Shown here: piece by piece, positions 20,923 through 60,271 of the stretch
Layout: each line of letters opens with the position of its first letter
How positions within the stretch are numbered: the first letter of the stretch is position 1
Assembly (NCBI GenBank): GCA_018384745.1
Contig: JAHAYH010000137.1
Span: 35,392 to 99,391, forward strand
Length of the DNA stretch: 64,000 nt
From: Caryophanon sp.
GTDB lineage: Bacteria > Bacillota > Bacilli > Bacillales_A > Planococcaceae
Direction: 5' to 3'
Position numbers and translations under genes: made by a program
Notes under the pieces: generated by a model
The model's database searches: none
What the model was told of the DNA's origin: nothing
What the model saw: only the letters and a program-made list of their open reading frames with translations

Positions 20923-22492
20923 ATGGTGGCATATCCACAAATTCGCACGAGTGCGGACTTACTGAAAAGTACTATTAGCCTCGATGCATGTGTTCAATTT
21001 TTACAGCAACAGCAGGCAAAAGCTTGTGCAATCGTCAATTCGACGTTGTACGGGCTGATGCCTTTTTGGCGTTCTATGACAGCGGCAAACATTCACGCAG
21101 TCGTTGGATTGCATGTGCACGTGACCGTTGGGGAGGTCGTCATGCCACTTGTTGTGTACGCACAAACAAATGATGGCTATCAATCATTAATGAAAATATC
21201 GAGTGCGTGTTCAACGCGACAAGACCGCGTATTGCCACTTAACTGGCTTCGCGCGTATCAGCAAGGTACGATCGCGCTCGTTCCGTATGCAGAAGGTTTT
21301 ATTGAGCAGCACACGATCGAAGCATTGCTCGATGTGTATAAGCAACCTGTTTATATTGGCATTAGCCGCCCACATGGGAAGCGTCATTTAAATGAGTCGC
21401 GGACGGTTGCGATTGCAGAAGCGTTGCAGCTGCCGATTGTCGCGACGCAAGAAAATCGCTACATTGACGAGCAACAGTTTTTTGCATACCAAGTTGCACA
21501 AGCAATTGCTTCTGGTGTGAAACTTGTAGATGAAGAGGTTTCGTATGCACAGCCGGAACATTTTATGCCAACAGCGAGCATGTGGCAACAAGCATTTGAA
21601 GACGCACCGCACTGGTTAACAGCAGCGGAGACGATGCTTGAAAGCTGCCGTGTGACGATGCGTGAAAAGGAGCTGATGCTGCCTAAATATCCGCTAGCTG
21701 ATGGGGAGCGTGCCGACGATGTGTTGCGTCAACTTGCGTATGAAGGGCTTGCTGAGCGTCTACCACACGCCGATGAAGCATACAAAGAGCGCCTTGAGTA
21801 CGAGTTGTCGGTCATTCGCGAGATGGGCTATAGCGATTACTTTTTAATCGTTGCGGATTTTATGCGCTATGCACGCGAGCACAATATTTTAACGGGACCT
21901 GGACGCGGTTCATCTGCAAGTTCGCTCGTTGCGTATACGACGTATATTACGCATGTCGACCCGTTGCAATACGGCTTAGTATTTGAACGCTTTTTAAATC
22001 CAGAGCGTGTGACGATGCCCGATATCGATATTGACTTTGTCGATACGAAGCGCGCAGACGTTATTCAGTATGTGGCGAATAAGTACGGCACACAACATGT
22101 CGCTCAAATTATCACGTTTGGGACGCTATCGGCAAAAGCGGTCGCACGTGATGTCGCGCGCATGTTTCATTTCCCACCAGACGTGCTCGATGCGATTTCA
22201 AAGGCGATTCCGTCGAAAAATGGCGTTACGTTAGCAGAAGCATATACGCAGTCCGAAACGCTCCGACAGCTCGTGCATGCGAGTGAGCGTCATGAGCAAT
22301 GGTTTGCAGTCGCCAAACAGTTAGAAGGCTTGCCGCGAAATGCGTCGACACACGCAGCTGGTGTTGTGCTTAGCCCAAAGCCGCTTGTGGATGTTATTCC
22401 GATTGAGCAAGGGCATGACGGTGTATTTTTAACGCAGTGGCCGATGCAGGAAGTGGAAGCGGTCGGTTTATTAAAAATGGATTTTTTAGGCT
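20923..22492 (+). CDS. dnaE: DNA polymerase III alpha subunit DnaE, exon 1 (PHP domain and first catalytic-Asp motif)
   Basis: TGPGRGSSASSLVAY; MPDIDIDFVDTKRADVIQYV; ends ...LLKMDFLG-L at the intron boundary. Confidence 0.97.
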
Positions 22493-23412
22493 GTGCGATA
22501 CGTTAGTTTGAAAGATTATCAGAAATGGTAATCGGGGATAACTTATTAGAAAACTGTAGTTCTGATGGTTGGAATGAGAGCAGTCATGTTTGCTCGAAAC
22601 ACCACGCTAATATCCCACATGCATTATGTTTCATATAAAACATAGTGTATGAAGCTGGGTGAAGTCGTCGAATACTAAGGGAAATGAACCGAAGTACAGA
22701 GTAGGCGGGCGGTGATAGGATATGGTTAGAATGTGGTTCAACACCACTGACGAATCTTCGAATGTAAGGCTCTTGAGGAAGTTATATAGCCTGAGATGGT
22801 TATGTAGTACCGATGCGGTATGCTTGATAGGGAAAAGTAGTCATGGCCAAAGCAAAATTCCTGATACTCAACAAGGAGAGTATAATGCAAGCAGGGTCAA
22901 AGAAGAAACCTAAGTCTTATCTATACTAGGAATTACGGAACGTAGAAAGCTAGTGATTGCTATTTAAACTTTATATGAGGGGCAAGTATAACGAAAAGAT
23001 ATTACATCTATAAGTTATTTAGTGCTAGTGAGAGTGGAGTCACAGTACCAATGAAACCATGATAATAAGTGGTGGAGGGATAGGCTCTAGTCGTTTCATG
23101 AGATATTAATTAATTGATAAACTATTTCGCTTTTCGAGTATGACAGGGAAACAACCACCTCAAAAGAGTATTAACCAACTTAAACAACCTAAGAATCAAG
23201 GCGAACAATTATAAACTTGAAGAAGCTACTGTCAGAGAGTGGTTAGAGGTTAAAACTTGGTAAAACAAATAGGTAGTAATATCAACTAATTAGTATTCAA
23301 AAAGGAAACGATGGAACGCCGTATGATGGGAAACTATCACGTACGGTGTGAAGCGGGGGAAAGGGAGTAATCATAACAGGTAATGCTGATGAAGAAACCT
23401 ACCTATCGCTAT
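22493..23412 (+). mobile_element. Group II intron (group IIB-like) without intact intron-encoded protein, inserted in dnaE
   Basis: 5' end GTGCGATACG; 34-nt domain V at 23316-23349 with GAAA loop and 2-nt CG bulge; domain VI with bulged A at -8; 3' end AT; EBS1 AGCCTG (22788-22793) pairs with IBS1 TAGGCT; excision restores codon GGC TTG CGT. Confidence 0.96.
23316..23349 (+). ncRNA. Group II intron domain V (catalytic core)
   Basis: ACGCCGTA-TGATGG-GAAA-CTATCA-CG-TACGGTGT; 34 nt; CGC catalytic triad. Confidence 0.93.
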
Positions 23413-24893
23413 TGCGTAATTTAAGCATTTTAGATCAAATTCGTCGCTCGATTTATTATTCGCATCAGCGCGTGCTTGATTTTGAAAAAATTCCATTTCA
23501 TAACGAAGCGACATTTGCGTTGCTGCAACGCGGCGACACGACTGGCATTTTCCAACTTGAATCGGCAGGGATGAAGGAAGCGCTCCGCGATATTTGTCCG
23601 ACGCACTTTTTAGACATCGTTGCGGTCAATGCCTTGTATCGACCAGGACCGATGGATTTCATTCCGAGCTATGCACGTCGTAAGCGCGGCGAGGAGCAAG
23701 TCATCATGCCGCACGAGGCGCTTCGTCCGATTTTAGAAGAAACGTACGGCGTAATTATTTACCAAGAGCAAATTATGAAAATTGCGTCTGTTATGGCAGG
23801 CTTCACATTTGGTGAAGCGGATTTGTTGCGCCGAGCAATTAGTAAAAAAAATGAGCAAGTGATGCAGCAGCAGCGCGCAAAATTTATCGCAGGGGCTGTT
23901 GAACAAGGATTTGAGGAGCGCGTTGCACATGAGGTGTATGCGTTGATCGAGCGCTTTGCAGATTACGGCTTCCCGAAAAGTCATGCTGTTGCCTACAGCT
24001 ATATTTCGTATTACTTAGCGTATTTAAAAGCCAATTTCCCAGCGAACTTTTATGCGGCACTTTGTTCAAGCAGCATTGGGAACCAAGAGCGCATCCAGCA
24101 ATATTTGCAAGAAGCGAAGGAGCGCGGCATCGAAGTATTACCACCGTCGCTCCATAAAAGCCAGCGCATGTTCACCGTTGAAAACGGCGCCATCCGCTAC
24201 GGGTTGTCTGCAATTAAAGGGGTGCCACAGCCGTTTTTAGCGAACTTGATGAACGTGCGCAAGCAAAAAGGCACACCGTTTACGAGCATGTACGAGCTAG
24301 CGATTTACGTATCTGGCAAACAATTTACCGACAAGCATATTGCGCCGCTCATTAAGGCAGGCGCGTTTGATGACTTCGGACGCGACCGTGGAACGCTGCT
24401 TGCAACATTAAACGGTGCGATGCAGCATGCGAATTTATATCGACCGACTGAAGACGTGCCGGTCAATGAAAGCGTTGCAAGCATGCGGTTAAAATATGTG
24501 CAAGCAGCACCGCTGACGATGAAAGAATTATTGCAGTTTGAAAAAGAGGCGCTCGGTTTTTACGTGTCGGCGCATCCGATTGAACAAGTATCACCGCAGC
24601 ATTTACAACAGCGTACGCCGCTTCTATACGCATCGCAGCTGCAAGACGGTGCGCATGTAACAGTGCTCGGCGCGATTGAAGAGGTACGAGTATTGCGCAC
24701 GAAAAAAGGGGAACAAATGGCGTTTGTTACGCTAGAGGATGAAGGTGGCACGATCAGCTGCACCATTTTCCCGCATTTATTTGCACGTGTGCAGTCATTG
24801 CTTGTTGAAGGGCAACTCGTTGGTGTTGAAGGACAGATCGAAGTGCGCTTTGGTAAACGACAGGTGAAAACGAAACAGCTTTATGCGGTGTAA
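23413..24893 (+). CDS. dnaE: DNA polymerase III alpha subunit DnaE, exon 2
   Basis: (L)RNLSILDQIRRSI...DIVAVNALYRPGPMDFIPSYARRK...YGVIIYQEQIMKIA; exon1+exon2 = 3051 nt, in frame. Confidence 0.97.
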
Positions 24894-51059: not shown

Positions 51060-51240
51060 TCCGTGATAGGATAGTAAAGGTTAAAGAATACAAGTTTGTG
51101 ACAAGTAGAGGCTGCCCGCTTCTCACCTGCGTCTGACACATTATATGTTGTTGACAGGTTGACACGTTGAATTGATTACGCACAAGTGTGCGTATACACA
51201 TATAGCGGGCGGACATCTAAAATGTCCGTCCTTTTTTTAT
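51060..51240 (+). promoter_or_regulatory. infC-rpmI-rplT leader (L20-type autoregulatory leader) with terminator
   Basis: Structured leader ending in GGGCGGACATCTAAAATGTCCGTCCTTTTTTT about 95 nt before infC. Confidence 0.7.
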
Positions 51241-51332
51241 GGAAATGCGGACGCTGAAGATGATCCGTTCAACATCGGGTAACATATACTCACACATCGG
51301 TATTCGCGACTACTACTTGGAGGTGGATTACT

Positions 51333-60039: not shown

Positions 60040-60271
60040 ATAAATGCATTGACCGGGAAGAGTACTGTAATGCCGCATCAACTAGGGAGTAAAAGCCATG
60101 ACTGGAAGCTTTTATGATGACGATTACACGAAGTTCACCCCGCTACGCAGCATGGCAGAAAAGTTATGCCGGTGATGAGCCGTTACGTAAATGAAGTGAT
60201 TGTGGCAACACAATAACTAGGGTGGTACCGCGAAATAGTCCTCGTCCCTTTTTTAGGGGCGAGGTTTTTTT
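60040..60271 (+). promoter_or_regulatory. T-box leader of pheST (specifier UUC, 60134-60136)
   Basis: AGGGTGGTACCGCG (60219-60232); CCTCGTCCC...GGGGCGAGGTTTTTT terminator; specifier context TTC-ACCCCG. Confidence 0.95.

Follow-up and report, generated by a model that had tools for sequence, protein, structure and literature searches.

A group II intron without an open reading frame interrupts a conserved motif of dnaE in Caryophanon sp. and shares its insertion site with an intron of Clostridium tarantellae

The window (the whole 64,000-nucleotide stretch of Caryophanon sp. DNA that was analysed) contains a dnaE gene divided into two exons by 920 nucleotides that carry the parts of a group II ribozyme. 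The exons, the intron and its domains are arranged as follows:

20923-22492, plus strand: dnaE exon 1, PHP and part of the polymerase palm; 523 codons and the first base of a split Leu codon
22493-23412, plus strand: ORF-less group II intron of 920 nt, GTGCG...TAT (Rfam RF02004 and RF00029; same-site relative in C. tarantellae)
22549-22719, plus strand: domain I region, model group-II-D1D4-5 (RF02004, 70.2 bits, gathering 34.5, E 7e-13)
23316-23349, plus strand: domain V, 34 nt (RF00029 alignment and fold)
23352-23410, plus strand: domain VI with the putative branch-point A at 23405 (RF00029 alignment and fold; read from the sequence)
23413-24893, plus strand: dnaE exon 2, finger, HHH and OB domains (Pfam finger, HHH_6, OB)

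Exon 1, in which Pfam recognises PHP and DNA_pol3_alpha, aligns with positions 7-539 of NF005377, a profile of DNA polymerase III alpha, and exon 2 with positions 540-1022; across the joint no residues are lost or duplicated, and exon 2 continues exon 1 directly. Exon 1 ends with ATG GAT TTT TTA GGC T at 22492 and exon 2 starts with TG CGT AAT TTA at 23413. The 920-nt element with both of its boundaries, and the spliced frame of 3051 nt (1016 amino acids with a single terminal stop), all proposed in a first-pass annotation of this DNA, are present in the sequence, as is the stop that ends the unspliced reading after CAIR. The truncated product of 527 residues given there has the right length, but its composition has to be restated: 523 of the residues are DnaE, and the last four, CAIR, are encoded by the intron. 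At 23412, exactly at the 3' splice site, an ORF of 493 aa opens with TTG. The insertion point lies within the conserved KMDFLGLRNL stretch of DnaE, at the 98th percentile of conservation (11-residue profile, 30 DnaE sequences). In two genomes of the same genus (G001 and G002) dnaE is intact and intron-less.

The covariance-model search that the first-pass annotation had suggested recognised both the D1-D4 and the D5-D6 parts above the gathering thresholds. The D5-D6 match to RF00029 (23314-23412, 58.1 bits, E 8e-9, gathering 40) stops precisely on the last base of the intron, where the 3' splice site had been proposed, and this region folds at -32.5 kcal/mol compared with -19.4 for dinucleotide shuffles (z -4.4). 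The intron start GTGCGATACG, the end CGCTAT, the 34-nt domain V and a bulged A eight nucleotides from the 3' end, all read earlier from the letters, are in place; this A, at 23405, is unpaired in the fold between two G-U pairs and is the expected branch point. The element has a domain V with the catalytic triad, a domain VI with the bulged A and a domain I-IV scaffold, and the group II end rule (5' GUGYG, 3' AY) is satisfied at the very exon junctions that restore the frame. Frame, boundaries and covariance models together support the claim that dnaE is split by a group II intron. The D1-D4 score of 70 bits is below those of the polC and recJ introns described further on (145-170 bits). At full length, the intron is present as a single copy in its genome, on a 99-kb contig.

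A scan of 85,462 species (one genome per species), in which the pattern was the dnaE codons directly followed by GTGYG, gave 14 matches. Thirteen were chance matches outside dnaE; the one within dnaE belongs to Clostridium tarantellae DSM 3997 (NZ_WHJC01000017.1). Its intron has an insertion point identical to that of the window intron, and the first 22 bases of the two are shared; across the 5' 707 nt they are 78% identical, and across the 3' 258 nt 77%. Unlike the window intron, the C. tarantellae intron is 2709 nt long, with a clean spliced reading LLKMDFLGLRTLT, and its ORF encodes a group II reverse transcriptase/maturase (TIGR04416, 320 bits) and, past one frameshift in the assembly, a part with the HNH endonuclease motif. 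In the window intron there is no reverse transcriptase or maturase in domain IV, just remnants of the two ends of such an ORF:

23120-23170, plus strand: N-terminal remnant of the intron-encoded protein that was lost, LFEYDRETTTSKEY, aligning with the C. tarantellae ORF start LFEYDREKTTIKGG
23162-23263, plus strand: C-terminal remnant of the intron-encoded protein that was lost, KRVLTNLNNLRIKANNYKLEEATVREWLEVKTW followed by a stop, aligning with the C. tarantellae ORF end KRVLNNLNKLRKEAKTKIIKEDDVRMWLEVKTW

The two segments are about 1.8 kb apart in C. tarantellae, and the retention of both indicates that the window intron came from an ORF-bearing intron of the dnaE site through an internal deletion. 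A tree built from the first 620 nt places the two introns together as sisters (support 1.0). With the recJ intron of the same genome the window intron shares only 55% identity. Carriage of the dnaE intron by plasmids or phages was considered and dropped, the best plasmid match having 65% identity over 72% and phages yielding short D5 matches only. In C. tarantellae, unlike in the window, dnaE is interrupted by a group I intron as well (RF00028, 71.9 bits), between ...FASYAF and NKSHAAAY, so that both intron types occur in one polymerase gene:

L179, 1621-1938, minus strand: RF00028 match, group I intron of C. tarantellae dnaE

The window intron carries a matching element for its exon:

22486-22492, plus strand: IBS1 TTAGGCT, the last seven bases of exon 1, pairing 7/7 with EBS1
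22788-22794, plus strand: EBS1 AGCCTGA, intron positions 296-302, at the edge of a hairpin loop

The seven pairs are six Watson-Crick and one G-U, and nowhere else in the intron is a 6/6 match to IBS1 reached with five or more Watson-Crick pairs. Tested on five exon sequences from four other insertion sites, the same EBS1 forms 0-2 of 7 pairs; in the C. tarantellae intron 5/7 pairs are formed. The second interaction, in which EBS2 was placed by comparison with the recJ introns, is broken in the window intron (AACAC versus GATTT, 3/5), whereas the C. tarantellae intron (AAATC) pairs 5/5. In some genomes the EBS2 loop of the recJ introns tracks synonymous changes of the exon (TTACG/CGTAA, TTATG/CATAA), and in others, with CACAA for example, it does not. 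Group II membership does not require the EBS2-IBS2 pairing, which can degrade in an intron that is no longer mobile; with DNA targeting lost, a splicing-only intron could tolerate such decay, which is how we would explain the state of EBS2 here. Given the comparatively low D1-D4 score and the broken EBS2-IBS2 pairing, splicing of the window intron may be weak.

We consider it very probable that the 920 nt descend from a mobile intron of the dnaE site that has had its ORF deleted and must be spliced out of the message. The observations that carry this account are the anatomy and boundaries of the element, the restored frame, the same-site relative, the ORF remnants, the EBS1-IBS1 pairing and the selection on the exons (see below). 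The ancestor would have been a mobile intron encoding a reverse transcriptase, whose lineage specialised for one target, the codons of KMDFLG/L in dnaE (here and below a slash marks the insertion point), and reached both Bacilli and Clostridia, presumably by retrohoming and horizontal transfer. In the Caryophanon genome a deletion would then have removed the greater part of the domain IV ORF for the reverse transcriptase/maturase, leaving a splicing-only intron in an essential gene. Judging from its sequence, the intron would be removed from dnaE mRNA in the cell by branch-point splicing before DnaE is made, and splicing would probably call for a maturase supplied from elsewhere or for host factors. 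DnaE is essential in B. subtilis. With essentiality carried over from there, and with a draft assembly that is 90% complete, it is a sound inference that replication of this cell would depend on ribozyme splicing, as the first-pass annotation had suggested.

The host assembly is a draft whose 170 contigs add up to 2.15 Mb, with a marker-based completeness of 90%, and the two same-genus genomes measure 3.3-3.6 Mb. In this 2.15-Mb draft there is no TIGR04416 or RVT_1 match to a reverse transcriptase, no related intron-encoded protein was found elsewhere in the incomplete assembly, and polC was not found in it either; because the assembly is well below the same-genus size, these absences, and that of a second dnaE, are weak evidence. 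The best partial polC match lies within a 923-aa frame that is probably a DinG-type exonuclease-helicase. The same genome contains a second ORF-less group II intron, in recJ at GDYDA/DGVTST, which splices to VYGDYDADGVTSTT:

L065, 4363-5133 (G000:C31): recJ intron, ORF-less, 771 nt

Group II reverse transcriptase genes number three in G002 and none in G001, and both genomes carry a polC intron. G001 is a complete genome by markers, and its ORF-less polC intron therefore exists without a recognisable maturase gene.

One may ask whether the intron, though real, is spliced poorly or never, with a second dnaE or PolC alone serving the cell and the split dnaE being a young pseudogene. The incompleteness of the draft, from which polC is missing, the weakened EBS2-IBS2 pairing and the failure to find a maturase in the draft speak for this explanation, which we nevertheless regard as improbable. 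The check for a second dnaE that the first-pass annotation had called for found none in the 90% complete assembly, where only the two exons match, and 60 relatives have one main dnaE match each, joined in a few relatives at class level by a more distant second copy. EBS1-IBS1 pairing is perfect. Exon 2 cannot be read without splicing, yet it is open over all 493 codons with no stop and no frameshift, and its dN/dS (about 0.11 by YN00, with NG86 in agreement) is no higher than that of exon 1 (about 0.13), the reference for both being G002, the nearest relative with an uninterrupted dnaE. Both exons are under purifying selection; since most of the divergence from G002 may predate the insertion, these values show that the gene has not decayed and say nothing of the age of the intron.

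The 493-aa ORF that starts with TTG exactly at the 3' splice site lends itself to another explanation, namely that two polypeptides, the 527-aa exon 1 product and an exon 2 product initiated at 23412, are translated separately without splicing. There is no evident ribosome-binding site upstream of this TTG, the polypeptide would be cut inside KMDFLGLRNL, one of the best conserved stretches of DnaE, the ribozyme parts are conserved, and C. tarantellae has an intron at the same site with the same exact boundaries, all of which leaves this explanation with a very small probability. Just as improbable is an assembly or binning artefact by which a foreign intron became joined into dnaE: the genome is indeed a draft in 170 contigs, but both junctions are exact to the base and lie inside a 99-kb contig, the genome has just one full-length copy of the intron, and the EBS1 of the intron fits the dnaE exon of the host.

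D5-D6 matches were found in 104/151 genomes of the host family, and group II introns are thus common in it. The polC junction PDIDL/GTGYG occurs in 21/263 family genomes from 8 genera and the recJ junction GDYDA/GTGYG in 20/263 from 7 genera, while the reversed control patterns of the two junctions had no match in the 263 family genomes. Wherever the fetched stretch includes both ends, the spliced sequence is, without exception, PDIDLNFSGEYQP for polC and GDYDADGVTSTT for recJ. The polC site is the active-site motif PDIDLNFSG:

L079, L080, L081, L082, L083 and L138-L158: polC introns at PDIDL/NFSG

These introns range from 767 to 2653 nt; one has a full reverse transcriptase ORF of 608 codons, and the other examined ones have anything from none to short remnants. 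Four further assignments, to topB, pcrA, nrdF and polC at a second site, are based on NCBIfam matches of 79 downstream-exon residues: topB is interrupted at DHHA/IIPTE in two genomes (L067, L098, L099), pcrA is interrupted at several places, and introns precede exons matching nrdF (ribonucleotide reductase) and the second polC site, before HASAYVLM (L097, L121). Several group II introns per contig occur in and around the pcrA helicase gene (L070, G026:C137; L071, G036:C33). The topB intron of G026 is the nearest relative of the dnaE intron pair in the tree, and in G036 an ORF-bearing intron occupies a different position of dnaE, YQEQI/M. The survey of host genes covers high-scoring, fetched introns, several of them intergenic or without assignment, and no proportion can be derived from it.

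Introns of the family group by insertion site and not by host: identity within a site is 72-100% for polC and 72-96% for recJ, and between sites about 60%. Site-faithful homing lineages would give such identity within sites, and so would old vertical inheritance. The first-pass annotation had held that housekeeping-gene examples are few, which is true of the literature consulted (PMC4424553) but fails for the host family, in which such introns are common in replication and repair genes.

Known cases of group II introns in bacterial housekeeping genes include Geobacillus recA, Trichodesmium dnaE and Azotobacter groEL. Like the window intron they interrupt an essential coding gene and must splice; they differ in host, and Trichodesmium dnaE belongs to a distant lineage. 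According to a review, bacterial group II introns are mostly located outside housekeeping genes, with some, of the CL and ML lineages, inside, and those without an ORF are rare and almost always co-occur with a related intron-encoded protein (IEP), C.te.I1 of Clostridium tetani being the exception (PMC4424553). The window intron resembles C.te.I1 in being ORF-less in a genome in which no group II reverse transcriptase was found; C.te.I1, however, resides in a surface-layer protein gene, undergoes alternative splicing and was tested in vitro (PMC3919590, PMC4424553), whereas the window intron is in an essential replication gene of an incompletely assembled genome. A preference for conserved sites was reported for inteins and group I introns and not for group II introns, in a comparison made mainly on organelle genes (PMC2814812). 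In the open-access literature (subscription journals being outside its scope) we found no paper on dnaE, polC or recJ introns of the host family and none on the C. tarantellae dnaE intron.

The dnaE intron itself is of a known type, and the surprise is that such introns, in the manner of inteins, occupy motifs of replication genes that are conserved. Inteins occupy the same kind of niche, the conserved motifs of polymerases, helicases and nucleotide reductase, at sites common to distant hosts (PMC2814812, PMC5874633), and are removed at the protein level, whereas group II introns are removed from RNA by the ribozyme. It is possible, with the chances evenly balanced in our estimation, that group II introns fill in the host family the niche held elsewhere by inteins: several separate lineages, every one of them tied to a single conserved motif (in dnaE, polC, recJ, pcrA, topB or nrdF), would home between distant bacteria and later lose the reverse transcriptase, being kept as obligate splicing elements, and the two in the window genome may splice without any maturase. 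A splicing-only intron in a 98th-percentile site of a replicative polymerase contrasts with the pictures drawn in PMC4424553 and PMC2814812, and its context makes it more interesting still, as there is a same-site relative in another bacterial class, a visible route from a mobile to a splicing-only element, and a host family whose DNA replication and repair genes are repeatedly interrupted by such introns at conserved motifs. It offers a natural bacterial setting for questions usually put to organelles, namely how a selfish ribozyme becomes indispensable, what replaces the maturase, and whether splicing can set a limit to replication.

Two other structured RNAs were recognised in the window, a T-box leader at 60040-60252 (109.9 bits) and an L20 leader at 51097-51243 (59.4 bits, just over gathering), both of which are ordinary for Bacilli.
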